From Deltaproteobacteria bacterium (GTDB lineage: Bacteria; Myxococcota_A; Polyangia; HGW-17; JAJRWW01), in the NCBI GenBank assembly GCA_029938605.1, contig JAOZUO010000001.1, positions 57,932 to 121,931 of the forward strand: a stretch of DNA of 64,000 bases, in the 5' to 3' direction. Numbering within the stretch: position 1 is the stretch's first letter; each line of letters starts with the position of its first letter. The translations under genes were made by a program, and so were the position numbers. The notes under the pieces were generated by a model that did no database searches, had not been told where the DNA came from, and saw nothing but the letters and a program-made list of their open reading frames with translations. This document shows, piece after piece, positions 31,508 to 58,769 of the stretch.

Positions 31508-34500
31508 TCAGGGAGTGTGGGCCCCCAGTAAGTGACTGTCCAAGGGCTCGGTGGTCCACTGGGCCGGGTCCCAGGCGGGAGCGGTGATGCCTGTGTTGAT
31601 TCCGGGATTTCGGATAAAGCCCGTGTCGGCACCGAAGATCGCCGCATCCCCGATGACGCCCACGAGGTCCACGCGGTTCGAATCCGGGTCCACGAGCTCC
31701 ACCGCGTCGTTGCCGTTAAAGGAGAGCAAGCCCGAGCTCTGGTCGGCGGTGGCCCCAACGAGGACAGCGCCCGTGTTCGCCAGGACATAGGTCCCACCGC
31801 TGGGCAGGATCACGGAGTTGAGCGCGATGGTCGAAGACGGTGTCGCGCTGCCGTTGGAGTATACTCGGACGGAATAGCCTCCCAGGGAGAGGTCGGAACC
31901 ACTGGCGTTATACAGCTCGGTGTACTTGTTCAGTCCCGTGCCCTCCACGTACTCCGAGATAATCAAGCCACCGCCATCGCCACCGGGGAGCTGGCCCTGG
32001 AAATGAACGATACCGCCGCCCCCCGTGTAGTCGGTGTAGGTCACGAAGAAGTCGTTCCGGGAGGTCCCGTGAATGGACTGAAGGTTCCCGTCCACCGGGG
32101 GCGCCATGGGGGACCAGGCGACGCCGTCGTACCAGACCAGGGTCCCGGCGTCCCCCACGATGAACACGTCCCCCTCGGGCGCAACCCACACGTCACGCAA
32201 ATTCTCCGAGACGGGCACGACCACCTGGGACCAGCTCGTACCATCCCAGTGGAGCACCCGGGCGTAGTCTCCCACCACCCAGACGTCGTCCGGCCCTGAA
32301 CCGCCCATGCTCCTGAAGTAGACCATGGGCATCCCCACCGCGGTGGCGGCCCACCCGGTACCGTCATGGCGCCAGACCTGGTTCCGGCCGGCCACATAAA
32401 CATCGTTTGGACCGCTGGCCCACACTCCGTATAGGTGATCCCCGCCCGGCACGCTCATGGCGCTCCAGCTCGTGCCGTTGTATCGGGTCACGCGGCCGTT
32501 ATCGCCCACCGCGTAGATCTCACTGGCGCTTCGGCCCCAGACCCGCCAGGGACGATAGAAATATATCGGGTCCGCGGACCAACCGGTCCCATCGAAGTGC
32601 CAGAGCGCGTTCGAAGTGGCGCCGGCGGCCCAGACATTGCTGGGCGAGACCCCCCACACACTACGCAGCCCTGACGCGCCGCTGGGAGCCGGCGCCGACC
32701 AGTCCGATCCGTTCCAACGCGACACAGCTCCGCCGCTGGCCACCGCAAAGGCCTCCGTGGAGCTGTCGGCCCAGACACCGTACATACCAATGTTGACATT
32801 GCTGTCGGTGGTCCACCCCGGCCCCTTCCCGCCGAAGTGCAGGATTTTGCCCGCGGTGCCCACCGCGTAGATGTCGTTTTTAGACGCCCCCCAGACCCCG
32901 ATCAGATAAGCCCCCGTGCCGCTATGCTCGGCGGTGTAGGACGAGCCGTCATACCGGAAAATAGTCCCGTACCGTCCGACAAATATCACGTCGTCGGACG
33001 ACGAACCCCAGACCCCCCTCATGTGAGCGTATGAGTTCGCGGGCGCGAGGGTGGTTGAGTGCCACGTTCCATCGTAGTGAAGAACCGTCCGGTAGGTGCA
33101 GGCCGCGTGAATATCGTTCGGGCCAGTACCCCAGAATCCGTAGATCGTGTTCGGAGTGGGCACGGTAACACTGCTCCACGTGCTGCCATCGAATCGGCGG
33201 ACCAGGGAGTACTCGCCGCCGCCCGCGCTAGAGATATCACCGCCGCCCCCGGCGTAAACATTGTTTGGTCCGCTGGCCCAAACCGCCGCCAGTAAAGAGT
33301 TGGTACCTGAGTCCACGGTAGTCCACGAAAAGCCGTCATAGTGCAGAATCTCGTAGGTATACGAATAGGTCGTCGTGCCGGTGCGGGTTCCCCCGACCGC
33401 GTACACATCAGTCGGCGAGATGGCGAAAACCGAGGCCAGGGACTCCGTGCTCCCCGAGGCGTGAGGTGTCCATGCGGAGCCGTCCCAGTGCAGGATCGTC
33501 CCGTTGTCACCTACGACCCACAGATCGTCCGGGCCTATGCCGTGCACGGACCGCAGGTGTTCGGTGGTACCCGAGGGGATGGGATCCCACCGGTTGCTAC
33601 CGCGCCCATGCAGAATTGTGCCGTCAGCCCCTACGATCCAGATGTCGTCCCAGCCGAAACCGAAAACATCGATCAGGGTCACGCTCGTGCCCGAAGGCAG
33701 CGCGGACCAGCCCGGCGAGTAGCAGCCCTGGTAGGTGTAACGACAGTCCGAGGAGCAGCTGAGCCGCCCCGCGTCGAAGCCGTAGAAGTCCACGCAATAC
33801 AGACCCCGTACATCCAGACCGTCGCACTCCTCGGTGCCGTTGACCTCACCGTCGCCACAGTACCTCTGGCACCCCACCACCGGATCGATGGTCTGGCAGT
33901 CCGGACTGCAGGTCAGGTGGCCGGTGTAGTAGCCGTAGTCCACGCAGGAGAGCACTCCGAAGTCCGCGTAGTCGCAGGCCTCCTCCAGATCCAGGACGCC
34001 GTCTCCGCAGCGGCCCTCACACTGACCGAAGCTCGGCTCGCAGTTCGATTGGCAGGTCAGGATGCCACTATAGTAGTCGTAAGCAGTGCAGTCTGCCGCG
34101 TCGAGGTCGGAGCCGTCGCAGCTCTCGTCGCCATTGAGGATCCCGTCCCCGCAGTAGCCCCCGCAGCCAAACGTGTCGATTCGACAGGTCGACAGACAGG
34201 ACAGGGTGCCCGGGTGATAGCCCAGGGACTCGCAGGTGTCCGAGCCGAGCTCGGACCCATCGCACTGCTCCCCGCGGTCGGCGTCGAGGATCCCATCTCC
34301 GCAACCAGCCAGAACACACCCCGGGCGACAGATCGCTCCCGGGTCTACAGAGTTGTTGGCACCCTCGTCGCACTCCTCACCGAGATCCACCACCCCATCT
34401 CCACAGCTCTCTTCGAAGCAGGTGGGCCCGCAGCCGTCTCCGGGGGCCAGGTTGCCGTCATCGCAGATCTCGCCCAGCGCGACGTCAATGACGCCGTCTC

Positions 34501-34951
34501 CGCAGCGCGGCACCTGACAGGTCACACGACAGGTATCCGGGGTCACCGAAGAGTTGGAGGCTCCATCGTCACAGGCTTCGGCGTTGCTTGGATCCACCAC
34601 GCCATCGCCGCAGCGAGGCAGGCGACAGGACTGCCGGCAGGCGTCGGCGATGGCGTCCGAATTGGCGGGCCCGTCGTCGCACTCCTCGGTGCTGTCATCC
34701 ACCCCATCCCCGCAGATCCCCGGAATGCACACCTCGAGGTCGCAATGATATCCCCCCACCCCATCGACCTCACACAGCGTGCCGTCCTCCTGGTCGACGC
34801 AGCTGGTCAGCTGACTGGGCTGGACGCACAGCTCATGCTCCGAGTCGCACCGAAACCCCGGTGGACAGACCTGGCTCCCACAGGGAGTGCTCTGCGAGCC
34901 GACGCAGCCTGCGCCCAACAGAACCAAAGCAGTGATGAAAAATGATCGCAC
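31508..34951 (-). CDS. Giant Cys-rich/propeller surface lipoprotein with C-terminal lamin-tail domain
   Basis: GTG at 34951 with GGGGAGG SD; CVGSQSTPCGSQVCPPGFRC; many CGDGxxDxxEECDDG repeats; about 15 W-G-x-S-x-x-D-V-x-A-V-G-x-x-G-T-I-L-H propeller units; C-terminal GGLIISEYVEGTGLNKYTELYNASGSDLSLGGYSVRVYSNG. Confidence 0.85.
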   Translation of the reverse strand: MRSFFITALVLLGAGCVGSQSTPCGSQVCPPGFRCDSEHELCVQPSQLTSCVDQEDGTLCEVDGVGGYHCDLEVCIPGICGDGVDDSTEECDDGPANSDAIADACRQSCRLPRCGDGVVDPSNAEACDDGASNSSVTPDTCRVTCQVPRCGDGVIDVALGEICDDGNLAPGDGCGPTCFEESCGDGVVDLGEECDEGANNSVDPGAICRPGCVLAGCGDGILDADRGEQCDGSELGSDTCESLGYHPGTLSCLSTCRIDTFGCGGYCGDGILNGDESCDGSDLDAADCTAYDYYSGILTCQSNCEPSFGQCEGRCGDGVLDLEEACDYADFGVLSCVDYGYYTGHLTCSPDCQTIDPVVGCQRYCGDGEVNGTEECDGLDVRGLYCVDFYGFDAGRLSCSSDCRYTYQGCYSPGWSALPSGTSVTLIDVFGFGWDDIWIVGADGTILHGRGSNRWDPIPSGTTEHLRSVHGIGPDDLWVVGDNGTILHWDGSAWTPHASGSTESLASVFAISPTDVYAVGGTRTGTTTYSYTYEILHYDGFSWTTVDSGTNSLLAAVWASGPNNVYAGGGGDISSAGGGEYSLVRRFDGSTWSSVTVPTPNTIYGFWGTGPNDIHAACTYRTVLHYDGTWHSTTLAPANSYAHMRGVWGSSSDDVIFVGRYGTIFRYDGSSYTAEHSGTGAYLIGVWGASKNDIYAVGTAGKILHFGGKGPGWTTDSNVNIGMYGVWADSSTEAFAVASGGAVSRWNGSDWSAPAPSGASGLRSVWGVSPSNVWAAGATSNALWHFDGTGWSADPIYFYRPWRVWGRSASEIYAVGDNGRVTRYNGTSWSAMSVPGGDHLYGVWASGPNDVYVAGRNQVWRHDGTGWAATAVGMPMVYFRSMGGSGPDDVWVVGDYARVLHWDGTSWSQVVVPVSENLRDVWVAPEGDVFIVGDAGTLVWYDGVAWSPMAPPVDGNLQSIHGTSRNDFFVTYTDYTGGGGIVHFQGQLPGGDGGGLIISEYVEGTGLNKYTELYNASGSDLSLGGYSVRVYSNGSATPSSTIALNSVILPSGGTYVLANTGAVLVGATADQSSGLLSFNGNDAVELVDPDSNRVDLVGVIGDAAIFGADTGFIRNPGINTGITAPAWDPAQWTTEPLDSHLLGAHTP

Positions 34952-35023
34952 GATACCTCCCCGGGGATTGAACAAAAACGCCCTGTCGAACAAACCCGCC
35001 AAACGGGAGCTGACTGAGCCGGT

Positions 35024-36001
35024 CTAGAATCTGTAGGTTACAGCCACGCCCGTGGTGCGGCCGATCACCGGAACCACCATGAGTTGGGGTCGGCTGGGAC
35101 GACTGAGACTCGCCTTTTTGGTGTCAGCGTCGCCGTCATCGCTTTTGACGAGCCGCGGGCGATTCAACAACAGGCCTATGAAGCTGACCCCGGCCACCAC
35201 GCCCCCGACCACGATCAAGCCCACGCCGATCTTGCGGTACAAGACCCCCTTATCATATGCATCGGTATCGTAGTTGCCGGACGGTATCGAATCATCGTAT
35301 TTGTTATAGGCGTTCTGGGCGACCACCATGGCGCCCGCGCCCCCGCCTGCGATGCCGAGGCCCAGGACCAGGCCGGTCCACGGCAGCCAGCGGGGCAACG
35401 GAGTCTTGAGCTTGCCGCGCTTGATGATGACCCGCGCCTTGATTTTTTTCAGCTTGATGCGGAGCGTCCGCCGATCGCCGCCCGCCAGGTCGATGGTTCT
35501 CGTTTCGCCGTGGTGGCCCCTGAGCGTGACGGCCACCACGTGCTTACCCGCCTTCAATCGCAACTGCGTATTGAGGGGACCCGCTCCGAGCAGTTTTCCG
35601 GCGACCACCACCTGCGCCCCTGTCTGCGGTGCGATGATACGTAAAGTCCCCACTCGCTTGAGCATGTTCCCCAAATGGACCCGCGCGTTCTTGATGAGCT
35701 TTTTGTACTTGGGGGTCTTCGGCGCGTTCTGCAGGAACTGTTCAAAGTAACGGATCACCTCGATGGGGTGATCCATCTCCTGGGCCATGCGAGCGAGGTT
35801 GTACAGGTACTTGGGCTCGCGATCCAGGGTGTAGGCCTGGACCCAAAGCCTCTTGGCCTTCTTGTAGTCGCCGTCATTGAAGGCCTCGAGGGCCTTCTTG
35901 TGGAGACCCGTGCCCTGAGGGCTGGCCATGGCGTCGCCGGCCTGGAGCAGTACACAAAGGACAAGAATGGAGGGCAAAACCCAGCGGATGAGTGTTCGCA
36001 T
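35024..36001 (-). CDS. TPR-like plus PEGA-domain membrane protein
   Basis: ALEAFNDGDYKKAKRLWVQAYTLDREPKYLYNLARMAQEM; GAQVVVAGKLLGAGPLNTQLRLKAGKHVVAVTLRGH; C-terminal TMs. Confidence 0.8.
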   Translation of the reverse strand: MRTLIRWVLPSILVLCVLLQAGDAMASPQGTGLHKKALEAFNDGDYKKAKRLWVQAYTLDREPKYLYNLARMAQEMDHPIEVIRYFEQFLQNAPKTPKYKKLIKNARVHLGNMLKRVGTLRIIAPQTGAQVVVAGKLLGAGPLNTQLRLKAGKHVVAVTLRGHHGETRTIDLAGGDRRTLRIKLKKIKARVIIKRGKLKTPLPRWLPWTGLVLGLGIAGGGAGAMVVAQNAYNKYDDSIPSGNYDTDAYDKGVLYRKIGVGLIVVGGVVAGVSFIGLLLNRPRLVKSDDGDADTKKASLSRPSRPQLMVVPVIGRTTGVAVTYRF

Positions 36002-36028
36002 AGTGCGCTCGATTTACCAGACTACCGG

Positions 36029-37483
36029 TCAGTCAGCAATGTCCCGGATCTTCCGCCTGCGGCGCGGCACCGGAGGGGGTGGTCGCGGCCGCCTAACCCT
36101 CCTGGGCGCGATACGTCGCGGTTTCACCTTGATCAAAATCGGCGGCCGCGCCATGGACGGAGCGACCACCCTCGGCCGAGCTCTGCGACGCCGCCGCCTG
36201 GTGCTCTTTCTCATGGAAGGCCGTACAGGTCGCGCATGGGCCAGGCCCGCGTCCGGTGAGACCTTGGCTTTTGCCATGGGCAGCGGCTGCACCCGCACCT
36301 GCTCGGCGGCGCCCGCATCCAAGGCCTCGGCCGGCGCGTCCACCGCGGGCTTCGCGGCGCCAGCGGCGGAGGTCTTCGTGTCAGTACCCCCGCGCGTGAA
36401 AAACAGCAACAACCCCACGGCCACCACCAACGCCCCAATCCCCCCGGCGACGGGAAGCGCCAGGTTCCGCTTCCGAGGAAGCTCAAACACGTCCTGGGCT
36501 TGGGCGGCAGCGCCGGACAGGGTGGAGGTGGAGGCATCCGAAGAGGTCTGCGGTCCACCATCAGACCGGACTGTCGCAGGGCCAGCGACTCCCGTGACCG
36601 GCGCGACCTCATCGCTCTGTAGACCAGCGCGAAAGGCCTCGCAGAACTCCCCCAGGCTGCCGAAGCGATCTTCGACGCGCTTGGAGACGGCTTTGTCCAC
36701 GGCGGCGATGGCCCCGTAGGGCAGGTGCGGCGCGACCTGACCAAGAGGGATCGGATCCTCGAAGCAGATCTTCATGAACACCGCCGGCAGGCTCGGCCCG
36801 CCGAACGCGAGGTCTCCACACAGCGCCTCGTAGGCGATGGCCCCCATGGAGAAGATATCCGCCCGCGCGTCTACATCACGGGCCTCCCCTTCGGCCTGCT
36901 CGGGAGACATATAGTTGGGCGTACCCATGATGGCGCCCGCCTGGGTCTGCATGGTCTCGGTGGTCTTGATCTTGGAGATCCCAAAGTCCAGAATCTTTAT
37001 AATCTCGTTGCCGTTGATGTTGGAGATGAAGATATTGTCCGGCTTCATGTCGCGGTGCACGACCCCAGCCGCGTGCGCCGCGTCCAGTCCGTTGGCGATC
37101 TGGGTCATGATCGCCAGCCATTGCCAGGGGTCTACTGGGCTCTCGCGCGCCAGGTAGTCGGTGAGGACCTCCCCTTCCAGTAACTCCATGGCCATGTAGA
37201 GGCAGCCGTCCTCGGCCTGGTTGAAGTCGTACACCTGGACGATATGCGCCGAGCCCACCGACGCCGCGATGATGGCCTCCCGGTGGAAGCGCTTGAGGGC
37301 TTCTGGATTCTCCGCGGCGTCTCCGCGCAGGATCTTGATCGCGTAACGCTTTGGAATCGAAACGTGGTCTGCTTCGTAGACCTCACCCATGCCGCCCCTG
37401 CCGATCATCTTCCCAAGGCGGTACATTCCCCGGATGACCTGGCCGGTGCGCTGGCTCGTCGACGATAGCGGTGTTTCGGTCAC
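36029..37483 (-). CDS. Ser/Thr protein kinase
   Basis: IGRGGMGEVYEADHVSIPKRYAIKIL, VHRDMKPDNIFI, DFGISKI, GTPNYMSPEQ; C-terminal Arg/Pro-rich tail. GTG at 37483 preferred, given a promoter within the longer ORF. Confidence 0.92.
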   Translation of the reverse strand: MTETPLSSTSQRTGQVIRGMYRLGKMIGRGGMGEVYEADHVSIPKRYAIKILRGDAAENPEALKRFHREAIIAASVGSAHIVQVYDFNQAEDGCLYMAMELLEGEVLTDYLARESPVDPWQWLAIMTQIANGLDAAHAAGVVHRDMKPDNIFISNINGNEIIKILDFGISKIKTTETMQTQAGAIMGTPNYMSPEQAEGEARDVDARADIFSMGAIAYEALCGDLAFGGPSLPAVFMKICFEDPIPLGQVAPHLPYGAIAAVDKAVSKRVEDRFGSLGEFCEAFRAGLQSDEVAPVTGVAGPATVRSDGGPQTSSDASTSTLSGAAAQAQDVFELPRKRNLALPVAGGIGALVVAVGLLLFFTRGGTDTKTSAAGAAKPAVDAPAEALDAGAAEQVRVQPLPMAKAKVSPDAGLAHARPVRPSMRKSTRRRRRRARPRVVAPSMARPPILIKVKPRRIAPRRVRRPRPPPPVPRRRRKIRDIAD

Positions 37484-37504
37484 AGTGGATCCCAGTTGCC
37501 CAAG

Positions 37505-37533
37505 AATGTAACGTGAGCGCTGGAATTGGTCAA
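37505..37533 (-). promoter_or_regulatory. Putative sigma-70-type promoter TTGACC-N17-TACATT
   Basis: ttgaccaattccagcgctcacgttacatt on the minus strand, 22 bp before the GTG at 37483. Confidence 0.45.
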
Positions 37534-37597
37534 CGACCGCCGACACGACCGTCAATCCCTATTGGAGCAAAGACCTCCGCCGTGGGGTGGAGCACCC

Positions 37598-39211
37598 TCA
37601 GCCTTGAACCGGCTTCTGAAGAACTCTCAGCATCTCCTCAATGCGTTGATAATGCTGCCTGATATCCGCAGGACAGGGGTCAGGTCGCTGCCGATCCAGC
37701 AGGTGGATCAGGCTCACCTCAGCGTCACTCTGCTGCTCGCGCATATGGTGGTGGCGCTCCTCACGGGCCCGGATCGCCTTCTCGAAGTCCGCCTCCTTCC
37801 CGTCCTTGTGCCTGAAAATCTCCTCCAACCGCGCCTCCAGGGTGGCGATCTGGAAGTCGAGGTCGACGCTCTGGGGCGAATCCACCGTGTGCTCCATCAG
37901 CCGGCTGCGTTCCATGCTCAAATCCACGACGGCGCTACGAACGCGGACCATGGACTCCCGCATGACCCCGTCGAGCTCCTTTAGCCGCTCCTCGGCGACG
38001 ACGATCTCCGTCTGGAGTCTGTCGGCCGACTCCTCGATCTGGGCCAAGCTGCCCAAAGTCTCTCGAAGCTGGGGCGGATCCAGCCTCATCTGTAGAAGAT
38101 ACGCACCGAGCTCCTTGCTCAGCTTCACCACCTGGGACCAGTACCACTCCTTCCGCACGACCTCGCCGTCGGCAGACTCAGGTAGGGCTGCGACGTGGCT
38201 GGGCATGGCGATGGTCACGTGCCCATCAGAGTCGTCAGCGCTTACGGTGGATTCGTCCCAGTCGTCCGCCACGTCATCGGCGGCGAGAGCGGCGAGCAGG
38301 TTCGGTACGATCTTCGTCTGTGCCTTCCTCATGGCCATCAGGTGAGGCTCGATGACCTTCAGGAGGTCCGCGGCGGCGTGGGGGCGGTCTTGGGAGCGCT
38401 TCCTCAGGCAGGCCAGGATGACCCGCTCCACATCAGACGGAATGGGCTCGGCCCCAGGGTCGAGGTGAGTGCTCGGAGGCGCCGGAGTGTCCCGCTGGTG
38501 TGCAATGAGCAGCTTGGGAATGGACTTGGCAATGAAAGGGAGCCGACCGGCCACCAGCTCGTAGCCCATGACCCCCAGGGAGTATATGTCTGTGTGGTGA
38601 TCCACGGCGTCGGGGTCACCGCGGGCCTGCTCCGGAGACATGTAGGCCGGCGTGCCGAAGATGTCTCCCTGCTTGGTAAGAGCGGTCATGTCGGCCTCGG
38701 CCATCATCTTGGCGAGGCCGAAGTCGAGGATCTTGACCAGATCGTTACCCACTGCGTCCCGGGCAAGCAGCGTATTCTCCGGCTTGAGGTCCCGGTGAAC
38801 GACTCCAAGCTTATGGGCCGCCCCTACGGCACGGCAGATCTGAGCCAGGATGGATAGGCCGCGCAACATGGGCATACGCCCGGGCGCGACCTCTAAGATC
38901 ACATCCTGAAGACTCGGACCATCGATGTACTCCATCACCAGGTAGAACTGGCCGCTTTTCGCGCGACCGAAATCGTTGATCACAACGATATTCGGATGGT
39001 TCAGCCGACTCGTAGCCTGCGCCTCCCGCCGGAAGCGCTCCACCAGCACGGGATCGGACTCGACGGCTTCGTGCAACACCTTGATGGCAAAACGACGCCC
39101 GAGGGCAGCGTGCTCGGCAACGTACACCTCACCCATGCCCCCCGAGCCCACGAGCTCAACGAGCTCGAAGCGACCGGCAAAAATGTGACCTATGAGTGAG
39201 CCTTTGGCCAT
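37598..39211 (-). CDS. Ser/Thr protein kinase with C-terminal coiled coil
   Basis: LVGSGGMGEVYVAEH, VVHRDLKPENTLL, DFGLAKMM, GTPAYMSPEQARG. Confidence 0.94.
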   Translation of the reverse strand: MAKGSLIGHIFAGRFELVELVGSGGMGEVYVAEHAALGRRFAIKVLHEAVESDPVLVERFRREAQATSRLNHPNIVVINDFGRAKSGQFYLVMEYIDGPSLQDVILEVAPGRMPMLRGLSILAQICRAVGAAHKLGVVHRDLKPENTLLARDAVGNDLVKILDFGLAKMMAEADMTALTKQGDIFGTPAYMSPEQARGDPDAVDHHTDIYSLGVMGYELVAGRLPFIAKSIPKLLIAHQRDTPAPPSTHLDPGAEPIPSDVERVILACLRKRSQDRPHAAADLLKVIEPHLMAMRKAQTKIVPNLLAALAADDVADDWDESTVSADDSDGHVTIAMPSHVAALPESADGEVVRKEWYWSQVVKLSKELGAYLLQMRLDPPQLRETLGSLAQIEESADRLQTEIVVAEERLKELDGVMRESMVRVRSAVVDLSMERSRLMEHTVDSPQSVDLDFQIATLEARLEEIFRHKDGKEADFEKAIRAREERHHHMREQQSDAEVSLIHLLDRQRPDPCPADIRQHYQRIEEMLRVLQKPVQG

Positions 39212-42500: not shown

Positions 42501-43012
42501 GTTCCCTCGTCGCAGATCTCGAAGGGAGGGTTGACCACGCCGTCGCCGCAGGTCTCGATGGATTTGCAGTCGCCGCTGCACCCATCGCCGGAGGCGTTGT
42601 TCCCATCGTCGCACACCTCCTCGAACAGCGAATCCACCACGCCGTCGTTGCACCGTGGCAAGTAGCAGGTCGTGCGACAAACATTCGGCTCGGTGTCGGA
42701 GTTCTGGGCCGCCCCGTTGTCGCACTGCTCGAGAAGATCGACATAGCCGTCGCCGCACTGGCCCAGCACGCAGATTTCGTTGAGGCAGTGGTAGCCGCCC
42801 CGGCCCCCGAGCTCGCACAGCGTCCTGTCGGCTTGGCCCGCGCAGGGGATGAGCGCCTCGGGAGACACGCACATGAACGTCTGCCCCACCTGCTCACACA
42901 GCAAGCCCCGCGGGCAGACTATATTGGGGCCGCAGGACGTGCTCTCTGAGCCCACGCACGACATGCCGAGCGCTGTAACAAGCACCAGGGACGCGAGGAT
43001 GGCACGGCGCAT
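39596..43012 (-). CDS. Giant Cys-rich/propeller surface lipoprotein with Cys-rich C-terminal tip
   Basis: MRRAILASLVLVTALGMSCVGSESTSCGPNIVCPRGLLC; EECDDG-type repeats; propeller repeats; tip with CTADTDCRNGSC...CITSFTGGYCTSDCS. Confidence 0.82.
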   Translation of the reverse strand: MRRAILASLVLVTALGMSCVGSESTSCGPNIVCPRGLLCEQVGQTFMCVSPEALIPCAGQADRTLCELGGRGGYHCLNEICVLGQCGDGYVDLLEQCDNGAAQNSDTEPNVCRTTCYLPRCNDGVVDSLFEEVCDDGNNASGDGCSGDCKSIETCGDGVVNPPFEICDEGTANSNDPNAECRDDCQPGRCGDGILDSARGEDCDENQLAGETCESLGRYPGTLACGDTCRFDLTGCSGYCGDGVKNGPAGSEDCDGADLDGLTCTTLVDPYYLGTLSCLPNCRFGFADCSGKCGDGARNGSELCDGSDFGVETCTARGFYSGTLDCSASCDAIDDSGCVGYCGDSAVNGPEQCDGADLQGLACRDFSNYTAGGLLCVDDCSRSLDACFRPEWSLETSGTTLQLRSVWGSSFKNVISVGDSGTILHFDGEDWTAMTSPTTNRLRAVWGSSSTNVWAVGDSGTILHFDGDGWSGVTSPTSTYIYGLWGTGSANVYAAAQGQVLRYDGTAWTEIDTIPSPPAYRAIWGSSASDIFVVGGLGRIVHNSGGPGWAEHSTPTSELLNYVWGTGPSDVYAVGRNGTILHYNGSVWSAMTSGTTEELYTIWGGRYNDVYAAGADGTLLRYDGTSWIRVTTNSTEELYSVWGSSSADVFAVGSLGEILHFRGRGFGVEHPTMTGFPAAVWGSGPDDVFVAVQNLSTVHHYDGRGWSAQSASSTFEAIYGFSSDDVYAVGQDRIWHYNGASWSQVSQASGSWLRAVWGSAPDDVFAGGSDGMIRHYDGSSWSTMPTNTTSTFYSFWGTASDDVYAVTAFGWIRHYNGSSWSMMYQVPGVNCGGVWGSSADNILVACNDGVVARYDGASWSTASVGTSEDLTAIWGTSAYDVWVVGNAGTVLRYDGWSWAPVQSDTADYLVAIWGSSPFDVYVVGNTLHHFRGTLSAPARGRDGDACTADTDCRNGSCLNEGSSGVPGGICAQAGCDITPCNDAGTRCVDFGGTVGHRCWPECSHQVHCRSGYACMETIVGTLCLADCDHDRQCATGTCNKLTGFCENDGADGRVGDACVDSTDCEGALCITSFTGGYCTSDCSVELDNCPVDSACIKLWSDYELRGGCMKRCLTSADCRSGYSCIEGWFTFGEKICYQ

Positions 43013-43851: not shown

Positions 43852-43885
43852 CTCACCCTCAGTATCCCTTGTGCAATAGTCTTCG

Positions 43886-46800: not shown

Positions 46801-47287
46801 TCTCGCGGCAGGCGTCGGGCGTCACCGAGGAGTTGGCAGCGCCGTCGTCGCACGCCTCCATGTTGGAAGGATCGATCACCCCGTCCCCACAGCGGGGGAG
46901 GCGACAGGTCGGGCGGCAGGCGTCGGGCTGGTCCGAGGAGTTGGCAGCGCCCTCATCGCATTCCTCGGTGGAGTCAGCCACCCCGTCCCCACAAACACCC
47001 GGAATACAGACCTCCTGGTCGCAGTGGAATCCACCGATCTCATTGACCGTGCACAGGGCGCCGTCCGGCTCACCAATGCAGCTCACCAGCTGCAGGGGCT
47101 GGACACAGAGATCATGCTTCGAGTCGCATTCGAAGCTGGGCGGACAGACCTGCGCCCCACACGGCGTACTCTTGGAACCGACACAGCCGCCCGACACGAG
47201 GACAGTCAGCAAAATGCCGATGGAGCACACAGCTCCCACAACCACCGATAGCTTTGTCTGAAAAGACATATTCTCTCCAATTCCCAT
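43886..47287 (-). CDS. Giant Cys-rich/propeller surface lipoprotein with C-terminal CBM-like tip
   Basis: MSFQTKLSVVVGAVCSIGILLTVLVSGGCVGSKSTPCG; tip GRVYQADLTPGDWQGVNIIAEVGYGDVGTEPWF...DDEYMAELTVPQAGVYDYAFRFSRDGGVSWLYCDLDGA. Confidence 0.83.
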   Translation of the reverse strand: MGIGENMSFQTKLSVVVGAVCSIGILLTVLVSGGCVGSKSTPCGAQVCPPSFECDSKHDLCVQPLQLVSCIGEPDGALCTVNEIGGFHCDQEVCIPGVCGDGVADSTEECDEGAANSSDQPDACRPTCRLPRCGDGVIDPSNMEACDDGAANSSVTPDACRETCQLPRCGDGVVDPDLGELCDDGNLAPGDGCSPTCSEETCGDSHVDAGEECDEGAAISIAPNAVCRPGCVLAGCGDGILDDGRGEQCDGTELDAETCETQGYHPGTLSCLPTCRFDLSACGGYCGDGIVNGEEECDGSELDGGDCTTEGYYGGTLTCQSNCRFNLGQCDGSCGDGVMNGSEACDHQDFGGLSCATYGFYTGALTCSGQCGTVDTAGCSGYCGDGLVNGTEECDGADIQGVLCIDFPGYEAGRLACSQDCRRLFSGCYSPGWQNRFSGTTSSLWDVWGVSATSIFAVGADGTILHNHGGTAWTAMVSNTTESLRAIHGTGPEDVFVSGAAGTILRYDGQSWSPMVSGTAEELFDVWAAAPDNVFAVGVGGTILHWDGSAWTAMTSPTTTVLRAVWGSSGDDVFAAGDNQTILRYADSTWTIMSVGESMPAAYKDLWGLWGFGPNDVWAVGGDENILHWDGTSWTRAKSLASFMVSYGVWGATPADVTVVGRYGRTFNYNGSDWSFVNPTGVTLLGIWGASPSNAYAVGGGGKILHYGGEGSGWQVDTQYPEALKSVWVTSDSEAHAGGNNGGLYRWNGTSWSTMTSPTIKHVYAMSGVSPTSIYAAANASDVGSLLHYDGASWSVVSSVSGDIRDVFARSDSEVYLAGGGSHVWYWNGSSWHDWNLFSLLYKGSGSPTYLWAVWASGPDDIYTGGWYGRLGHWDGSQWTMITEPFEGKYIEAITGTGPDDVWVFGRSGTIVHWDGASWTKMISPTPESLVDAWATSTGEVFAAGSGGAIIWWDGEAWSLMESHTTSSLQYIHGSSRDHMMAVDSTGTVHRFQGRLPGGEDGLIDWCSLQYPLSTNTSAQVASEPIFGRVYQADLTPGDWQGVNIIAEVGYGDVGTEPWFDSSWRWSWAKYNMSYGNDDEYMAELTVPQAGVYDYAFRFSRDGGVSWLYCDLDGAHAREEYSPGQAGALTVTP
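46730..47219. repeat. 490-bp near-identical block (copy in 50404-50893), one mismatch
   Basis: Constant 3674-bp offset; mismatch at 46756/50430 (Leu/Phe). Confidence 0.93.
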
Positions 47288-47340
47288 GATCCCGTCCTAT
47301 TCGGAAATACGACCAAGGCCAATCCCATGTGAATGAGTGT

Positions 47341-50300
47341 TCAGAAGCTGCACAGGTAGCCGACTTGCCAGGTACAGGGTGCATCTCCCCAGGACTTCAG
47401 GTAGCCGTGAATAACTCCGCAGTTCTCGCTTGTGCCACCGTTGGGGTCTGTCGATTTCCAGTTAAAGTAGCTCGCCACCGTTCCATCGGGCCACGACCAG
47501 ATGGATTCGTTGCCCTCGTCTGTCAGTCCCATCCAGAGCCATCCACAATTTACGCTATTGGCCACCTCTCCCACCAAGTCGTTGTCCGCTGCATCGAGGA
47601 TGGTGGCGAGGTGACCGCCGAGGCTGACGCAGTGGGCTTCGGCATCCGCCCGGGTGACGGTCTGGGGGAAGCCGGCCACGCAGAAATTCGTTGTTGCGTC
47701 GGCGCGGACCGACAGGGCGCCCGAGCCGCTGGCGCAGGTGTAGCTACAGCTCGGCTCGCAGCCATCGCCCGGGGTGGTGTTGCCGTCGTCACACTCCTCC
47801 CCGAGGTCCACGTCGAGGTACCCGTCCCCGCAAGCCCGGATCGTGCACACCCCGTCGGCACACAGTCCCTGACCACTGCCGCATGGACGGCCGGAGCATT
47901 GGGAGTCCTCGCAGTCCACCAGGCCGTCGCCGTCGTCGTCCACGCCCGAGTCGCAGCGCTCGCAGCCCACGCCCTGACAGTCGGGATCGTCGCAGTCCAC
48001 CAGGCCGTCACCGTCGTCGTCCACGCCGGACTGGCAGACCTCGTCCGGCCAGGCCGAGACGTAGCGCAAAAGCCAGGTCTGATCATCGGTTCCGGGGAGA
48101 CCCCCAAACAGCAGCGTCTGGCGTCGGGTGGGCTGGTGGGCCATGGCGTATTTGTAGCGCGGTCCGGGGCTATCAGTGGGCTGGAGTTCCTCCCACTCAG
48201 TACCACAAAGAGCCCAGGTGTCGCCGCCAACGCCGTTCGAATATAGGAGCCCGCCATAGAGCAGCCCACACCCACGATCCGAGTCCCAGGTCATCGACAT
48301 GTACAGTCGTGCGTCAGGGTGGATGGCCGGCTGGAGCTGAGTCCAATTATTGCCGTCCCAGCTCCAGGTGTCCGCGTTGGCGAAGGTCCGAAAGCCACCG
48401 AACAGCAGCGTACGCAACCCGTCGGGGTCATAGACCGCGGCGTGGAAGCGGGTGTTATTCGGCGAGACCGTTGGGCTTCGCAAGCTCCAGACTGATCCAT
48501 TGAGTTCGTAGGTCAACAGCGTTGGACCCCAGGAGCCGATTCCCTCGAGGGTGGTTAGCACCGCTCGGTGACGCTGGGAATCGTAGACCATCGGACCGTA
48601 GAAAACGGCCGGCGGCTGGGGTAACGCGGTGCGCTTCACCCAGGTAGACCCATCGAACTCCCAGACGTCGCGCTGGAAGGAGCTGCTCAACGAGCCGCCG
48701 AAGAGCAGGGTGCGCTGCTGGTCGCTGTCGTAGGCCGTGGCAACAGCGCTCCGGGGACCGGGGCTCCCCGGCGTCTGCACCTGCGACCAGCGCTGCCCGT
48801 CGAACTCCCAGGTGTCGCCCAGGTCGCCCTGAGCGTCTGTCCCTCCGTAGAGCACGATCCGGTCCCGGAGACTGTCGTAGCTCGCCGAGGCGTCCCAGCG
48901 AGCGGAGGGGTGGGTGGCGTACCGGCGGGTCCAGGTGGCGCCGTCGAACACCCAGGAGTCGTCCACCACGCCCTCTGAGCCACGTCCGCCGAAGAGCACC
49001 ACCCCGCCCGCCGCGGCGGACCAGGCTGCGCCGTGAGCGTAAAGCGCCGGGGGGGACGCGACCGCAGACACGGGCGTCCAAGCGGTGCCGTAATACTCCC
49101 AGGTGTCCTCATAAGCATCGTAGCCGTAGTTGCCGCCAAAAAGAACCATCCGCTGCCGGGTCACGTCGTAGGCCATGGCCACTTGCCCCCGAGCTAGCGG
49201 CCTGGTGACTAGGTCTGTTCGGTGCGTCCAGGTGGTGCCGTTCCACTCCCAGGTCTCGTTCCAGCGTGTCCAGCTACTGTTCGACATACCCCCGAAGTAC
49301 ACCACCACCTGCCGTTGGCTGTCGTAGGCCATGGTGGCATCCATGCGTCTGGGCACAGAGGTCGCCGGTGCGCGCTTCACCCAGTCGATACCGTCGTAGG
49401 TCCAGGTGTCCTGCATGCTGCCGTAGTTACAGTCGTCCTCGCCGCCGAAGAGCACCATCTCCTGTCGGGCGCCATCGTAGGCCATGGCGCTCTTGGACCG
49501 GGAAGACGGCGAGTGCGCGGTTTGTATCGGCCGCCAATCGGCGCCGTCGTACTCCCAGGTGTCGTTCAGGTGGTTGGTGGAGCCCGCACCTCCGAAAAGC
49601 ACGACCACGCCCCGCTCCGCGTCGTAAGCCATCACGTGGCTGGCGCGAGCCGGAGGTCGGTGGGCCGTTTTGATTCGGCGCCAGCCCTCACCATCCAGCT
49701 CCCAGGTGTCATCCAGGGGGCCACCGGATCCAACGCCGCCAAAGAGCACAACCCGGTCCCGCGCCACGTCGTAGGCCATGCCCGGATGCTCCCGGCGTTG
49801 CAGCGGGTCTTTCCAGCGCTGCCAGGTCAGCGCCTCCGCGGTGCAGCCGCTGGAGCAGCCGTCGTGGCTGCGCAGGTTTCCGTCGTCGCACTCCTCCCCC
49901 GCCGCGCCGTCCACCACGCCGTTGCCGCAGGACTCCACGGAGAGACAGTCCGACGAGCAACCGTTGCCGGAGATTCGATCGCCGTCGTCGCAGGCCTCAC
50001 CGGCGTCGATCACGCCGTCGCCGCAGCCCGGGACCCGGCAGGTGGTGCGGCAGGTATTGGGCGTTGTATCCGAGTTGAGCAGGCCGTCGTCGCACTGCTC
50101 CCCCGGATCGGGGAAGCCGTTGCCGCACTCCTCCTCCTGGCAGGTCGGACCGCAGTTGTCGCCGGCCGCCACGTTGCCGTCGTCGCACTCCTCACCCGCA
50201 TCGATGACGCCGTTTCCGCAGTAGATCGGTTGGCACAGATCGCTGCACTCACCGTCCTGGGCACCGTTCTCTGCCGAGCACCCTGTGGCCGGGTTGGCCG

Positions 50301-50961
50301 CGTCAGTGCCGCAGTCACAGCCCTCGCCCGCGGCGGGCTCCACGATGCCGTTGCCACACAGCTCGACGTGACACAGGACGCCGCAGCCGTCTCCGCCAAT
50401 GTGGTTCCCGTCATCGCAGAGCTCCCCGAAATCCGGGTCCACCACGCCGTCGCCGCAGCGGGGGAGCTGGCAGGTCTCGCGGCAGGCGTCGGGCGTCACC
50501 GAGGAGTTGGCAGCGCCGTCGTCGCACGCCTCCATGTTGGAAGGATCGATCACCCCGTCCCCACAGCGGGGGAGGCGACAGGTCGGGCGGCAGGCGTCGG
50601 GCTGGTCCGAGGAGTTGGCAGCGCCCTCATCGCATTCCTCGGTGGAGTCAGCCACCCCGTCCCCACAAACACCCGGAATACAGACCTCCTGGTCGCAGTG
50701 GAATCCACCGATCTCATTGACCGTGCACAGGGCGCCGTCCGGCTCACCAATGCAGCTCACCAGCTGCAGGGGCTGGACACAGAGATCATGCTTCGAGTCG
50801 CATTCGAAGCTGGGCGGACAGACCTGCGCCCCACACGGCGTACTCTTGGAACCGACACAGCCGCCCGACACGAGGACAGTCAGCAAAATGCCGCTGAAAC
50901 GCATGGCTCCCACAAGTCCCGATGACTTTGTCTGAAAAGACATATTCTCTCCAATTCCCAT
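47341..50961 (-). CDS. Giant Cys-rich/Kelch surface lipoprotein with C-type lectin C-terminus
   Basis: Same N-terminus as 43886-47287; Kelch units MAYDxxRxxVVLFGGxxxxxxxxDTWEYDG; CTLD ADAEAHCVSLGGHLATILDAADNDLV...WMGLTDEGNESIWSWPDGTVASYFNWKSTDPNG. Confidence 0.87.
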   Translation of the reverse strand: MGIGENMSFQTKSSGLVGAMRFSGILLTVLVSGGCVGSKSTPCGAQVCPPSFECDSKHDLCVQPLQLVSCIGEPDGALCTVNEIGGFHCDQEVCIPGVCGDGVADSTEECDEGAANSSDQPDACRPTCRLPRCGDGVIDPSNMEACDDGAANSSVTPDACRETCQLPRCGDGVVDPDFGELCDDGNHIGGDGCGVLCHVELCGNGIVEPAAGEGCDCGTDAANPATGCSAENGAQDGECSDLCQPIYCGNGVIDAGEECDDGNVAAGDNCGPTCQEEECGNGFPDPGEQCDDGLLNSDTTPNTCRTTCRVPGCGDGVIDAGEACDDGDRISGNGCSSDCLSVESCGNGVVDGAAGEECDDGNLRSHDGCSSGCTAEALTWQRWKDPLQRREHPGMAYDVARDRVVLFGGVGSGGPLDDTWELDGEGWRRIKTAHRPPARASHVMAYDAERGVVVLFGGAGSTNHLNDTWEYDGADWRPIQTAHSPSSRSKSAMAYDGARQEMVLFGGEDDCNYGSMQDTWTYDGIDWVKRAPATSVPRRMDATMAYDSQRQVVVYFGGMSNSSWTRWNETWEWNGTTWTHRTDLVTRPLARGQVAMAYDVTRQRMVLFGGNYGYDAYEDTWEYYGTAWTPVSAVASPPALYAHGAAWSAAAGGVVLFGGRGSEGVVDDSWVFDGATWTRRYATHPSARWDASASYDSLRDRIVLYGGTDAQGDLGDTWEFDGQRWSQVQTPGSPGPRSAVATAYDSDQQRTLLFGGSLSSSFQRDVWEFDGSTWVKRTALPQPPAVFYGPMVYDSQRHRAVLTTLEGIGSWGPTLLTYELNGSVWSLRSPTVSPNNTRFHAAVYDPDGLRTLLFGGFRTFANADTWSWDGNNWTQLQPAIHPDARLYMSMTWDSDRGCGLLYGGLLYSNGVGGDTWALCGTEWEELQPTDSPGPRYKYAMAHQPTRRQTLLFGGLPGTDDQTWLLRYVSAWPDEVCQSGVDDDGDGLVDCDDPDCQGVGCERCDSGVDDDGDGLVDCEDSQCSGRPCGSGQGLCADGVCTIRACGDGYLDVDLGEECDDGNTTPGDGCEPSCSYTCASGSGALSVRADATTNFCVAGFPQTVTRADAEAHCVSLGGHLATILDAADNDLVGEVANSVNCGWLWMGLTDEGNESIWSWPDGTVASYFNWKSTDPNGGTSENCGVIHGYLKSWGDAPCTWQVGYLCSF
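50404..50893. repeat. 490-bp near-identical block, second copy
   Basis: See 46730-47219. Confidence 0.93.
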
Positions 50962-51138
50962 GATCCACTACAGCGCAATTCTCTGGTCGAAAACAGACAA
51001 TACAGCGTCTGCAGACAAAAATCATCGGGAGTCTGTCGTTCAGGCGGGCGCTCCCTCTCAAAACAGAGAAACGCGCCAGAAAAAGCAAAAACGTCCTGTA
51101 ACTCCTGTAACCCGCGCTACCGAAACCACCTGAATTCG

Positions 51139-51167
51139 TTGACCTTGTACCATGCTTCCCCTACTCT
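51139..51167 (+). promoter_or_regulatory. Possible sigma-70-type promoter TTGACC-N17-TACTCT
   Basis: Read directly; upstream of the ATG at 51256. Confidence 0.35.
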
Positions 51168-51255
51168 TGCGGACATTGGTGGCTCCAGGGGACGACTCCT
51201 ATATTTCAGCCGCTACTTCGTCAGCCAAAGAACATTTCCTGCGGAGGCGTACGTT

Positions 51256-54200
51256 ATGTGCCCGACAGCTAGGCCAGTGATCCTGATCCCATGGGGACTC
51301 GGCAAAATTCTCGTTTGTGCCCTCGTTGGCGCGACCCTGGCGGGGGGCTGTGTGGGGTCGGAGAGCACACCCTGCGGCCAAGAGGTGTGTCCCAAAGGAT
51401 GGGCCTGCCACGAGTTCAGTGACCGCCAGACCTGCGTCCTTCCATGGCAGCTCACCGCCTGCGCCGAAGGTTCCCTCGTCGATGGAGATCAGTGCGACAA
51501 CGAGGACAACGTGGGCTATCAGTGCGTGGAGGGTGTCTGTGTCCGTGGTGCCTGTGGAGACGGGGTGGCTGATTCCACCGAGGAGTGCGACGACGGCGTG
51601 CAGAACTCCACCACCGAGCCCGACGCCTGTCGGCCTTCCTGTCGGCTGCCCCGGTGCGGAGACGGCGTGGTGGACCCCTCAAATGGCGAATTCTGCGACG
51701 CGGGCGATGACAACTCCGACGAGGCAGACAGGGCCTGTCGCCCCAACTGCGAACCCCAGCGCTGCGGGGACGGCATCCTCGATACGGAGAGCGGTGAGAT
51801 CTGTGACGACGGAAACTCCCTGCCCGGGGACGGCTGCTCGGCCATCTGTCTGCTGGAGTCCTGCGGCAACGGCGTCATCGACGCGGGCGAGCAGTGTGAC
51901 GACGGAAACGCGGCTGACGGTGACGAGTGCCAGCACACGTGCCTCCTGCCGCGCTGTGGGGACAACATCCTGGATGAGGGCGCTCCCTACTACGAAATCT
52001 GCGACTCGGGCGGTGACAACTCCGACGCACCCGATGCGGCCTGTCGTCCCAACTGCTCGCCCCGGCGCTGCGGTGATCACATCCTCGACTCAGGTCATGG
52101 CGAGCAGTGTGATGACGGCAACATCGCGCCGGGGGACGGGTGCTCGACGACCTGCCTGCTCGAGTCCTGTGGCAACGGCGTCGTGGATGCGACCGAGCAG
52201 TGCGACGACGGGAACAACACCTCGGGCGATGGGTGCCAGGCCGACTGCGCCTTCCCGCGGTGCGGCGACGGCGTCGTGGATCTCCTGAGCGGAGAAGAGT
52301 GCGACGGCGCTTCGGTGATCGCCAGCGTGACCTGTCAGGATCTCGGTTTCTACTTCGGCACGCCCACCTGCGACTCCCTGTGCCACATCAGCGCGACGAC
52401 CTGCTCGGGCCGCTGCGGAGACGACACGGTGGATCTGGGCGAGGGAGAGACCTGCGACGGCTCCGATTTCGGCGGCCTTGGCTGCCTGGACTACGGGTAC
52501 TATGGGGGAACGATTTCGTGCCAGAGCAACTGTCAGGTGGCCCTGGGCCAGTGCAATGGGCGCTGCGGGGACGGCTTCGTGAACGGCGGGGAGGTCTGCG
52601 ACGGCGTGGACTTCAACGGCGTGTCCTGCGCGGACTACGGCTACTACACCGGATCCCTGGCGTGCGCGAGCGACTGCCAGACCATCACCCCGAGCTGCGA
52701 GGAGACCTGCGGCGACGGAGAGATCAATGGCCTGGAGGAGTGCGACAGCGACGACGTGGACCAGACCTATTGTATGGACCTCGCCGGATTCGCCGCGGGA
52801 CGCCTGAACTGCAACCAGAACTGCGAGCGAAAGCTGGACTACTGCTTCGCGCCGGGATGGCGCTCACGGCTCACCGAGGCGTCGGGCACCTTGCTGGGCC
52901 TGTGGGGGAGCGCTTCGGACAACATCTATGCGGTGGGCGTCGACGGGGAGATCCTCCGAAACCAGGGGGGAGCCGGCTGGCGCCTGCAACCATCGGGGGT
53001 GATCGAGGATCTGCGTGGGATCTGGGGCAGCGCGGACGATGACATCTACGTGGTGGGGGAGTCCGGAACGATCCTCCACTTCGACGGATCCGGGTGGCTG
53101 CCTATGGTCTCACCCGTGACGACCCTGCTACGTGGGATCTGGGGAGCCTCGCCCACCGACATCTGGGCCGTGGGAGACGGCGGCGTCGTGCTCCACTACA
53201 ACGGGCTAGTCTGGGAGGTGGAACCTCTCGGGCTCACCCAGGACATCCGGGCCATCTGGGGCTCCGCCGCGGACAACGTGTTCATCGTGGGCTCCTCGGG
53301 GCTGGTCCGCCGGTTCAACGGCACCACCTGGGAGGTCATGGACGACCAGTCCGGGGTTCTATTCGAAGATGTACATGGCCTGGACGCGCAGCACGTCTGG
53401 GTGGTGGGCGGCCTCCTGTCGGGGGACTGGTACGATCACGTCCGCTTCTATGACGGATCGAGCTGGACAACCCAGCTCACCAAGGGAACGGGTGCCGGCC
53501 GGTGGGCCTCTCTGAGGACGGTGTGGGCGATCTCGCCGACCCTGGTCTTCGCGGCAGGTGTAAATGGCAGCAAGAATGGATCCTACTGGCGGTTCGATGG
53601 AACCACCTGGGCGGGGGAACCCGGGGTCTCCACGATCATCTCCTACGACATGTGGGGACTCCCAACCTCCAAGCTCTACACCGTGGGCGAGCAGGGCACG
53701 GTCCTGCAGTACGGTGGAGACGGCGCCGGGTGGGTGGAAAAGGACCTGCCTGGGACCAGTTGTGTCGACGTGCTGATGCTCTCGGAGACCAACGCCGTGG
53801 CCGCGTGCGGCGCCACCTTACAGCGGTGGGATGGCACGGGGTGGACCCTAGAGATGACCGTGACGGGCTCATTTATATCGCTCTGGGCGAGCTCCCCCTC
53901 CAACATCTACGCCTTGTCAAACGAAGGCGGATCAAAGCTGTACCGATACAACGGCGTGAGCTGGAGCCTGGTTCCCGGCGTCCCCAGTCTGTCCTCGCCC
54001 AAGGATATCTTCGGGCTGCCCACCGGCGAACTCTACCTGAAGGGAGACTACGAGCACTGGGCCGTGTTCAACGGCACCTCCTGGACCACCCGGTACAACT
54101 GGACCTCTGACTGCTGGATTGGAAACAGCGTCTGGGGCACCTCCCCCTCGGACCTGTGGGTCGTCGGCCGTCGATGTATCAGCCACTACGACGGCACGAG

Positions 54201-55167
54201 CTGGACCAAGGTGCACTATCCCAGCTCCTGGCTATACAACGTGATCGGATCGTCGTCCAACGACGTGTGGGCCTTTGGCTCCGATGGGCTCGTGATGCAC
54301 TACGATGGTCTGACCTGGGAGAAGGTCGACGTGCCCACGGCGGAGTACGTGAACGGCGCCTGGATCACCGAGCAGGGTGAGCTGTTCGTGGTGGGCGCGG
54401 CGGGTACAATCCTCTGGTTCGACGGCGTTGGGTGGTCCCCCATGGCGAGCCCCACGCGCGCCACCATCAGCAAGGTCCACGGGATCTCGCGCAACCACAT
54501 GGTGGCGGTGGGCAGCGCGTTCCTGGAGTTCACCGGGGACCTCGCCCAGGTGCCTTTCTGCGGCCAGGGTGGAGCTCCTTGCAGCACCACGGCCTGGTCC
54601 CACTCCATTGCCATCGACGGCGTAAACGACTTTAGCGCCCAGGAGACATTCACCACGGGGTCGGCGGGGTTCACCGGCCATGTGACCTGGGACGCCACCC
54701 ACCTGTACCTGGGCTTTGACGGCGTAGACGTCGGCTCCGGCGATCCCTTCACCTGGGTCCACGCCTATGTTGGCGGCTTCGATGGAACCAACACCGGGCA
54801 GGTGTACAACTCCCAGCAACCCGAGCTCCCTTTCAAGGCGAAAGCGCACCTGCGGTGGAAGGCAGACGACTCCTATACCAACCTGCAGATCTGGACTGGA
54901 TGGGAGTGGACCGACGTGGGCTTCGGGGGCGCGGTGGCGCGTAACGGTCAGTTCGTGGAGCTGAGCCTCCCCTGGTCCGCCATCGGGAACACCCGCTCCT
55001 TTGGTGTTCACCTGAGCATGGTCAACGAAATCGCCGGGGGCGAATGGAGTTGGGCCTCGGTGCCCGAAGACTCCTTCACCGACGGTACCGATCCTGACTA
55101 TGGACAGTACTTCCTCTTCGACCGAAGCTCACCGGCCGCCCCCGCCAGCTACGCTCCCCGATACTAA
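51256..55167 (+). CDS. Giant Cys-rich/propeller surface lipoprotein with C-terminal CBM9/DOMON-like tip
   Basis: MCPTARPVILIPWGLGKILVCALVGATLAGGCVGSESTPCG; EECDDG repeats; propeller repeats; tip IAIDGVNDFSAQETFTTGSAGFTGHVTWDATHLYLGFDGVDVGSGD. Confidence 0.83.
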   Translation: MCPTARPVILIPWGLGKILVCALVGATLAGGCVGSESTPCGQEVCPKGWACHEFSDRQTCVLPWQLTACAEGSLVDGDQCDNEDNVGYQCVEGVCVRGACGDGVADSTEECDDGVQNSTTEPDACRPSCRLPRCGDGVVDPSNGEFCDAGDDNSDEADRACRPNCEPQRCGDGILDTESGEICDDGNSLPGDGCSAICLLESCGNGVIDAGEQCDDGNAADGDECQHTCLLPRCGDNILDEGAPYYEICDSGGDNSDAPDAACRPNCSPRRCGDHILDSGHGEQCDDGNIAPGDGCSTTCLLESCGNGVVDATEQCDDGNNTSGDGCQADCAFPRCGDGVVDLLSGEECDGASVIASVTCQDLGFYFGTPTCDSLCHISATTCSGRCGDDTVDLGEGETCDGSDFGGLGCLDYGYYGGTISCQSNCQVALGQCNGRCGDGFVNGGEVCDGVDFNGVSCADYGYYTGSLACASDCQTITPSCEETCGDGEINGLEECDSDDVDQTYCMDLAGFAAGRLNCNQNCERKLDYCFAPGWRSRLTEASGTLLGLWGSASDNIYAVGVDGEILRNQGGAGWRLQPSGVIEDLRGIWGSADDDIYVVGESGTILHFDGSGWLPMVSPVTTLLRGIWGASPTDIWAVGDGGVVLHYNGLVWEVEPLGLTQDIRAIWGSAADNVFIVGSSGLVRRFNGTTWEVMDDQSGVLFEDVHGLDAQHVWVVGGLLSGDWYDHVRFYDGSSWTTQLTKGTGAGRWASLRTVWAISPTLVFAAGVNGSKNGSYWRFDGTTWAGEPGVSTIISYDMWGLPTSKLYTVGEQGTVLQYGGDGAGWVEKDLPGTSCVDVLMLSETNAVAACGATLQRWDGTGWTLEMTVTGSFISLWASSPSNIYALSNEGGSKLYRYNGVSWSLVPGVPSLSSPKDIFGLPTGELYLKGDYEHWAVFNGTSWTTRYNWTSDCWIGNSVWGTSPSDLWVVGRRCISHYDGTSWTKVHYPSSWLYNVIGSSSNDVWAFGSDGLVMHYDGLTWEKVDVPTAEYVNGAWITEQGELFVVGAAGTILWFDGVGWSPMASPTRATISKVHGISRNHMVAVGSAFLEFTGDLAQVPFCGQGGAPCSTTAWSHSIAIDGVNDFSAQETFTTGSAGFTGHVTWDATHLYLGFDGVDVGSGDPFTWVHAYVGGFDGTNTGQVYNSQQPELPFKAKAHLRWKADDSYTNLQIWTGWEWTDVGFGGAVARNGQFVELSLPWSAIGNTRSFGVHLSMVNEIAGGEWSWASVPEDSFTDGTDPDYGQYFLFDRSSPAAPASYAPRY

Positions 55168-58756: not shown

Positions 58757-58769
58757 GGCCGCACCCCCC

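Follow-up and report, generated by a model that had tools for sequence, protein, structure and literature searches.

Several described systems come close to the proteins considered here. Myxobacterial proteins with TIGR02232/DUF4215 (PF13948) repeats are defined by models that cover the repeat alone. Ycf48 is a cyanobacterial 7-bladed propeller lipoprotein of photosystem II assembly, and BT4663 of Bacteroides, a hybrid two-component sensor in one polypeptide, detects heparin and heparan sulphate with a periplasmic double propeller. In Myxococcus, the kin-recognition receptor TraA is a cell-surface protein with Cys-rich repeats (PMC6626042), and the SitA toxins have been described as modular (PMC8546572). 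We report on five long paralogous genes, A to E, in a 64,000-nucleotide (nt) stretch of a polyangial myxobacterial genome (assembly GCA_029938605.1); the whole stretch is called the window. The genome (G000) is an 8.56-Mb draft of 359 contigs, 92% complete, and the window lies on its contig C39. An earlier note on this DNA described the five genes as a modular lipoprotein array with a shared scaffold and interchangeable tips. Three things go beyond that description: propellers too have been exchanged, the family extends across the class, and two Hanks-type kinase genes and a TPR/PEGA gene lie among the five.

All five proteins share six to nine repeats with the TIGR02232/DUF4215 proteins, while head, choice of propeller, tip and kinase neighbourhood lie outside that definition. 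The likeness to Ycf48 consists in being a lipoprotein and in a profile match to one half of the propeller region; the window proteins add a second propeller, a Cys stalk and tips, and there is no photosystem. Tandem propellers are held in common with BT4663, but here the lipoprotein and the Ser/Thr kinases are separate and identity is only about 13%. The Cys-rich repeats recall TraA, but TraA combines a type I signal with a variable domain and is anchored through MYXO-CTERM, where the window proteins have an N-terminal lipobox and propellers. A TraA-type kin receptor was rejected, as NCBIfam gave no MYXO-CTERM match in the five proteins. The open reading frames were confirmed where the earlier note had placed them and are paralogous. 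Their parts, where WGSS denotes a propeller repeat described below and lengths are in amino acids (aa), are:

31508..34951, minus strand: gene A, 1147 aa, with head, 8 Cys repeats, predicted 14-unit WGSS double propeller and lamin tail domain (LTD) tip
34715..34903, minus strand: gene A head, from mature Cys17 up to the first CGDG
33695..34714, minus strand: gene A TIGR02232/DUF4215 Cys repeats
31982..33694, minus strand: gene A WGSS propeller region, 14 units, Ycf48-like by profile
31511..31981, minus strand: gene A tip, LTD (PF00932, E=6.4e-14)
39596..43012, minus strand: gene B, 1138 aa, with head, 6-7 Cys repeats, predicted 14-unit WGSS double propeller and Cys-rich tip
40199..41824, minus strand: gene B WGSS propeller region, 14 units
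39599..40198, minus strand: gene B tip, Cys-rich, without Pfam family
43886..47287, minus strand: gene C, 1133 aa, with head, 8 Cys repeats, predicted WGSS double propeller and carbohydrate-binding module (CBM)-like tip
44288..45976, minus strand: gene C WGSS propeller region, 13 units found plus one unit-length gap, making 14
43889..44287, minus strand: gene C tip, beta-sandwich of about 130 aa, CBM34/CBM21-like predicted fold, mobile in the class
46757..47219, minus strand: gene C 463-nt tract identical to D, codons 23-177 of C
47341..50961, minus strand: gene D, 1206 aa, with head, 8 Cys repeats, Kelch propeller, DDDGDG repeats and C-type lectin tip
48079..49806, minus strand: gene D Kelch propeller (PF24681, E=4e-47), in place of the WGSS propeller
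47344..47655, minus strand: gene D tip, C-type lectin domain (PF00059, E=7e-16)
50431..50893, minus strand: gene D 463-nt tract identical to C
51256..55167, plus strand: gene E, 1303 aa, divergent from D, with head, at least 9 Cys repeats, predicted WGSS double propeller and CBM9-like tip
52873..54543, plus strand: gene E WGSS propeller region, 12 units found over a 13.4-unit span
54544..55164, plus strand: gene E tip, class-wide terminal domain of about 190 aa with weak CBM9 similarity

The evidence for module exchange begins at the nucleotide level. C and D share 463 identical nt, followed by one mismatch, 27 more identical nt and abrupt divergence. The C propeller is closest to that of A, while D carries Kelch. 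Mapped onto a tree of 48 heads, the propeller types require 17 changes where 5 would be the minimum, and the starred branches demand four or more for Kelch and four or more for WGSS; the heads of the window cluster with same-order heads that bear another propeller type, FVVVW. The tips travel as well. Of 245 class genomes, 37 carry tip E, with identities reaching 50%; it sits there on unrelated lipoprotein stalks, with a Gly/Ser or Asp-rich linker, an Ig-like domain or Cys repeats directly in front of it. Tip C was found in 43 of 147 class genomes, and a protein of at least 2825 aa in a deltaproteobacterial metagenome-assembled genome (MAG; locus L196) has LTD-like domains alternating with tip-C-like domains, then DUF4215 repeats. 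Exchange of modules among family members is thus well supported by sequence comparison. The idea of a common anchor with swapped ends gains from the C/D tract, from tips on other stalks and from propeller exchange on the head tree, and full congruence of heads and tips, which the earlier note had named as the finding that would tell against it, was not seen. Part of this exchange, together with the C/D identity, could be an artefact of a draft and probably metagenome-derived genome, since an identical repeat of 463 nt can mislead short-read assembly; this is very unlikely, given that the flanks of the C/D tracts differ on both sides (11 differences in the 32 nt just upstream) and that the other evidence, from the head tree and from tips C and E, comes from other genomes.

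The anchor is the constant part. In all five proteins an N-terminal hydrophobic segment, read by eye, ends in a lipobox-like Cys followed by VGS. The lipobox ends are LLGAGC (A), ALGMSC (B), LVSGGC (C and D) and TLAGGC (E), so that the N-termini read GC or SC and then VGS, and the -3 residue is not Leu. A CVGSxST Cys head of about 65-80 aa follows in all five, matched in the genome itself at E of about 1e-39 to 1e-40 by a profile built from four of these heads; a broader head profile gave no match in 1020 shuffled N-termini. Behind each head stand 6-9 TIGR02232/DUF4215 repeats, TIGR02232 scoring above its curated cut-off in all five proteins and DUF4215 in four, with B just below. Lipobox, head and Cys-rich repeats had all been claimed for the five genes and are all there. 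The head had also been called invariant, which it is not: identity is 42-68% over a core of 63-68 aa, reaching 100% for the C/D pair only, so the head is better called a family.

The predicted mature lipoproteins have Val at +2 and Thr at +7. They therefore have neither of two features described for Myxococcus xanthus lipoproteins, +2 Lys for the inner membrane and +7 Ala for the matrix (PMC3222651). Indirectly, the sequences suggest that the five proteins are lipidated and lie in the outer membrane.

The propeller bodies are of two kinds. A, B, C and E share a repeat of about 39 aa, VWGSSPxDVWAVGxxGTILHYDG (the WGSS type, for which there is no Pfam model), whereas D has a Kelch propeller (PF24681), so the common propeller/Kelch stalk proposed earlier does not extend to all five. 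A profile of the WGSS unit finds 14 units in A and in B, 13 plus a unit-sized gap in C, and 12 over a 13.4-unit span in E. Proteins of Sorangium cellulosum So ce26, So0157-2 and So ceGT47 (L121, L123, L124) also have 14, as do two MAG proteins (L120, L122), and one Sorangium protein has 17 (L125); the number 14 is kept in three of the four Sorangium cellulosum proteins counted. A profile of the four WGSS genes matches the 7-bladed Ycf48 over 289 positions, the length of one 7-unit half (E=4e-6). AlphaFold2 modelling of full-length C gave per-residue confidence (pLDDT) of mostly 80-97 across the WGSS region, and below 50, with no usable model, for the first Cys repeats and the tip. The best Foldseek matches of this propeller include tandem 7-bladed proteins (BT4663, AIP1/UNC-78, Utp21 and Gemin5). 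Taken together, the 14 units, the Ycf48 match, the model confidence and the tandem-propeller matches make it very probable that the WGSS region folds into two 7-bladed propellers in A, B, C and E.

Each gene had been said to end in a different module, and pairwise comparison indeed found no useful similarity among tips A to E. The assignments of tip A to the lamin tail family (PF00932, 6e-14) and of tip D to the C-type lectins hold; the latter scores 59.3 bits against a gathering score of 22.6 and is the sole Lectin_C match in the genome. Tips B, C and E have no Pfam match, and PDB sequence searches with C and E gave nothing significant. Because the full-length model had no usable tip, tip C was folded separately, giving a beta-sandwich (pLDDT 83) whose closest matches are N-terminal CBM34-type domains in neopullulanase-like amylases and starch-binding folds of the CBM21 kind (E=4e-4, TM-score about 0.5). 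The label CBM-like is therefore apt for the predicted fold of tip C and not for its sequence, which matched no starch-binding family in Pfam or PDB searches. For tip E, labelled CBM9/DOMON-like, there is weak CBM9 similarity at best, the PF06452 match not being significant (E=0.01 at best, from a single one of the eight family members).

A constant lipidated N-terminus with swapped C-termini is also the layout of SitA, and the five proteins might on that account be polymorphic toxins, a constant escort region delivering interchangeable effectors. Neither Pfam nor NCBIfam matched a toxin family in any tip, however; the tips resemble binding domains, and no small immunity gene follows each gene (the gap between D and C is 54 nt, and a reverse transcriptase (RT) remnant follows A). 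A SitA-type toxin was rejected on these grounds, and its probability is close to nil.

The RT remnant lies at 30522-30950 (plus strand), just past the 3′ end of gene A, and has an internal stop and a weak RVT_1 match; it resembles RTs encoded by group II introns. It is the only RT in the window, about 17 kb from the D lectin tip; three intact RTs are on other contigs. Diversification of the lectin tip by a diversity-generating retroelement (DGR) found no support, with no intact RT adjacent (a template repeat was not searched for); the differences between C and D in the signal region span more than one base type.

The pattern of head plus Cys-repeat lipoprotein extends beyond this locus and across the class. 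A first contig scan with a short head alignment gave no confirmable match; the head profile found members in 105 of the 294 class genomes, G000 contributing 14 matches. Among the 48 aligned head proteins, Pfam finds Kelch in 19, RCC1 in 6 and NHL in 2, the remainder including the WGSS and FVVVW types. By sequence, the window locus appears to be a local expansion of a class-wide modular lipoprotein family. Such expansion is common, as tandem head or WGSS lipoprotein genes occur in other genomes at L111 and L125, including in Sorangium cellulosum So0157-2. G000 itself has a second array, L116 (G000:C68:9000-21277), of three tandem lipoproteins with head, Cys repeats and RCC1, of uniform propeller type and without distinct tips.

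The abundance of these proteins raises another explanation, that propeller lipoproteins rich in disulfides form a coat on the cell or matrix, the tip differences being neutral domain shuffling that serves no recognition. Cys-repeat proteins abound in the genome (1098 candidates at first look, 151 matches), and in many members of the family the propeller or short Cys-rich repeats form the C-terminus, without a large tip. Yet the 14-unit number is kept in divergent proteins, and several tips are binding folds or recur across the class, and we consider a structural or matrix role unlikely.

We found no paper on the head family, on double-propeller lipoproteins or on a kinase-PEGA association, and no description of this assembly in work on DUF4215, TIGR02232 or PEGA and kinases in myxobacteria, in a literature search with most subscription journals outside its coverage. 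The individual repeats, domains and propellers are already known; their assembly appears undescribed.

Between B and A, all on the same strand, lie two Hanks-type kinase genes and a TPR/PEGA gene:

35024..36001, minus strand: TPR/PEGA protein gene (PF08308, PF07719)
36029..37555, minus strand: Hanks-type Ser/Thr kinase (PF00069, E=6e-45), one predicted transmembrane segment, basic/Pro-rich C-terminal tail
37598..39211, minus strand: Hanks-type Ser/Thr kinase (PF00069, E=6e-47), without transmembrane segment

The TPR/PEGA gene ends 72 nt upstream of A, and its product has a hydrophobic N-terminus and two C-terminal hydrophobic segments. We set 35 head loci from 20 other class genomes against 40 loci drawn at random from those genomes (382 kb of random loci versus 360 kb). 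With random loci that start at contig ends, and are therefore matched by genome and length and not by gene context, and with several head loci per genome, which are therefore not fully independent, a Ser/Thr protein kinase (STPK) was near head genes at 16/35 loci versus 5/40 random loci (Fisher p=0.0015), and a PEGA homologue at 12/35 versus 0/40 (Fisher p=3e-5). Kinase, PEGA and lipoprotein genes stand in a row at six loci, in co-directional order STPK-PEGA-lipoprotein, as in the window, at L239 and L248, reversed at L119, and divergent at L086, L093 and L126. In Sorangium, STPKs adjoin the WGSS gene at L124 and L125, and a PEGA gene does so at L123. The genome carrying the window has 161 Hanks kinase matches, and 11 of its approximately 19 PEGA genes are within 5 kb of an STPK, where at most 0.20 is expected for each (P about 4e-4 under uniform placement). 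Two kinase matches, G000:C30:1655-2428 and G000:C354:14143-14916, have identical scores and frame lengths, and are a duplicate or draft redundancy.

This neighbourhood brings in a trans-envelope sensor, in which a lipoprotein receptor, on binding its ligand with the propeller or tip, would signal through the periplasmic TPR/PEGA protein to a membrane kinase, with paralogues B to E widening the ligand range. The gene runs in the window and at the six loci speak for it, as do the enrichment over random loci, the clustering of PEGA genes with STPKs in the genome itself, the single transmembrane segment of one kinase, the hydrophobic segments at both ends of the PEGA protein, and the presence of the double-propeller sensor domain of BT4663 among the top Foldseek matches. 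Its basis is gene neighbourhood, however, and no interaction domain between the proteins was identified; gene order varies, the kinases are often divergent, and many heads have no kinase nearby. We hold the sensor model as a tentative possibility, and as the main rival to, or an extension of, a recognition function.

Such a recognition function is the reading we favour, with modest confidence: outer-membrane proteins of a glycan-binding type with exchangeable specificity modules, at least some of them tied to kinase cassettes. The lipid would anchor the protein in the outer membrane, the disulfide-rich Cys repeats would serve as a stalk, and the propeller would be a rigid platform or a ligand-binding body. 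The tips (C-type lectin, CBM-like, LTD and Cys-rich) would bind glycans or further ligands on the surface of polymers, prey or kin, and an exchange of propeller and tip on the constant anchor would change specificity without disturbing export or anchoring. The A unit, at least, would either feed a trans-envelope kinase pathway or be an output under its control, as suggested by the recurrence of the Hanks kinase and TPR/PEGA neighbourhood. Binding by the tips, coupling to kinases and the side of the membrane are the parts we infer. The combinatorial adhesin or recognition system of the earlier note is plausible from the sequences; the findings point to a set of exchangeable recognition parts in the cell envelope more than to a plain adhesin array, and the recurring kinase/PEGA arrangement suggests sensing or regulated display as much as adhesion. 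About as tentative as the sensor model is its extension to an undescribed class-wide signalling cassette of Polyangia-type myxobacteria, in which a periplasmic TPR/PEGA protein would couple a Hanks kinase to an outer-membrane lipoprotein receptor, and recombination between paralogues would exchange the receptor's propeller and tip and so yield a combinatorial repertoire.

Several points weigh against the recognition reading or its kinase link. The sorting rules come from another class, and the lipoproteins may face the periplasm. Resemblance in fold or family is what marks the tips as binding-type: tip C reaches a TM-score of about 0.5, tip E has no confident fold and tip B no family. An alignment of 84 columns underlies the head tree, 20 of whose 44 inner branches are unresolved, and the identical 463-nt tracts could be misjoined, swapping the bodies of C and D, because the genome is a draft. 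Only A stands directly in the kinase-PEGA run, with C, D and E outside it, and more than half of the head loci have no kinase within the flank examined. Kinase/PEGA cassettes at L240, L244, L246 and L247 carry headless Cys-repeat proteins, so the link is to Cys-repeat proteins generally and is not specific to the head.

Other features of the window were noted. An RcpC/CpaB (Flp pilus assembly) lipoprotein-like gene lies between B and C (43177-43851, minus strand; PF16976, 1e-12). Beside the array, c-di-AMP synthesis genes stand in a row at 57761-60580 (minus strand), comprising YbbR, a CdaA-type diadenylate cyclase and a pterin-binding enzyme. A further Cys-rich lipoprotein-like gene at 26619-27992 (plus strand) has TIGR04201-type repeats, the match being below cut-off, and 16183-18078 (minus strand) encodes an IgGFc_binding domain protein (PF17517, 9e-56). 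The window scan found neither RNA family nor tRNA.

Polyangial myxobacteria have very many Hanks kinases, whose activators are, to our knowledge, mostly unknown. If propeller lipoproteins with interchangeable tips are kinase inputs, receptor-kinase pairs could be read straight from gene neighbourhood. Even otherwise, the family is a clear example from nature of domains being exchanged while the lipoprotein anchor stays constant, and in C and D one such exchange can be seen in the nucleotides themselves.

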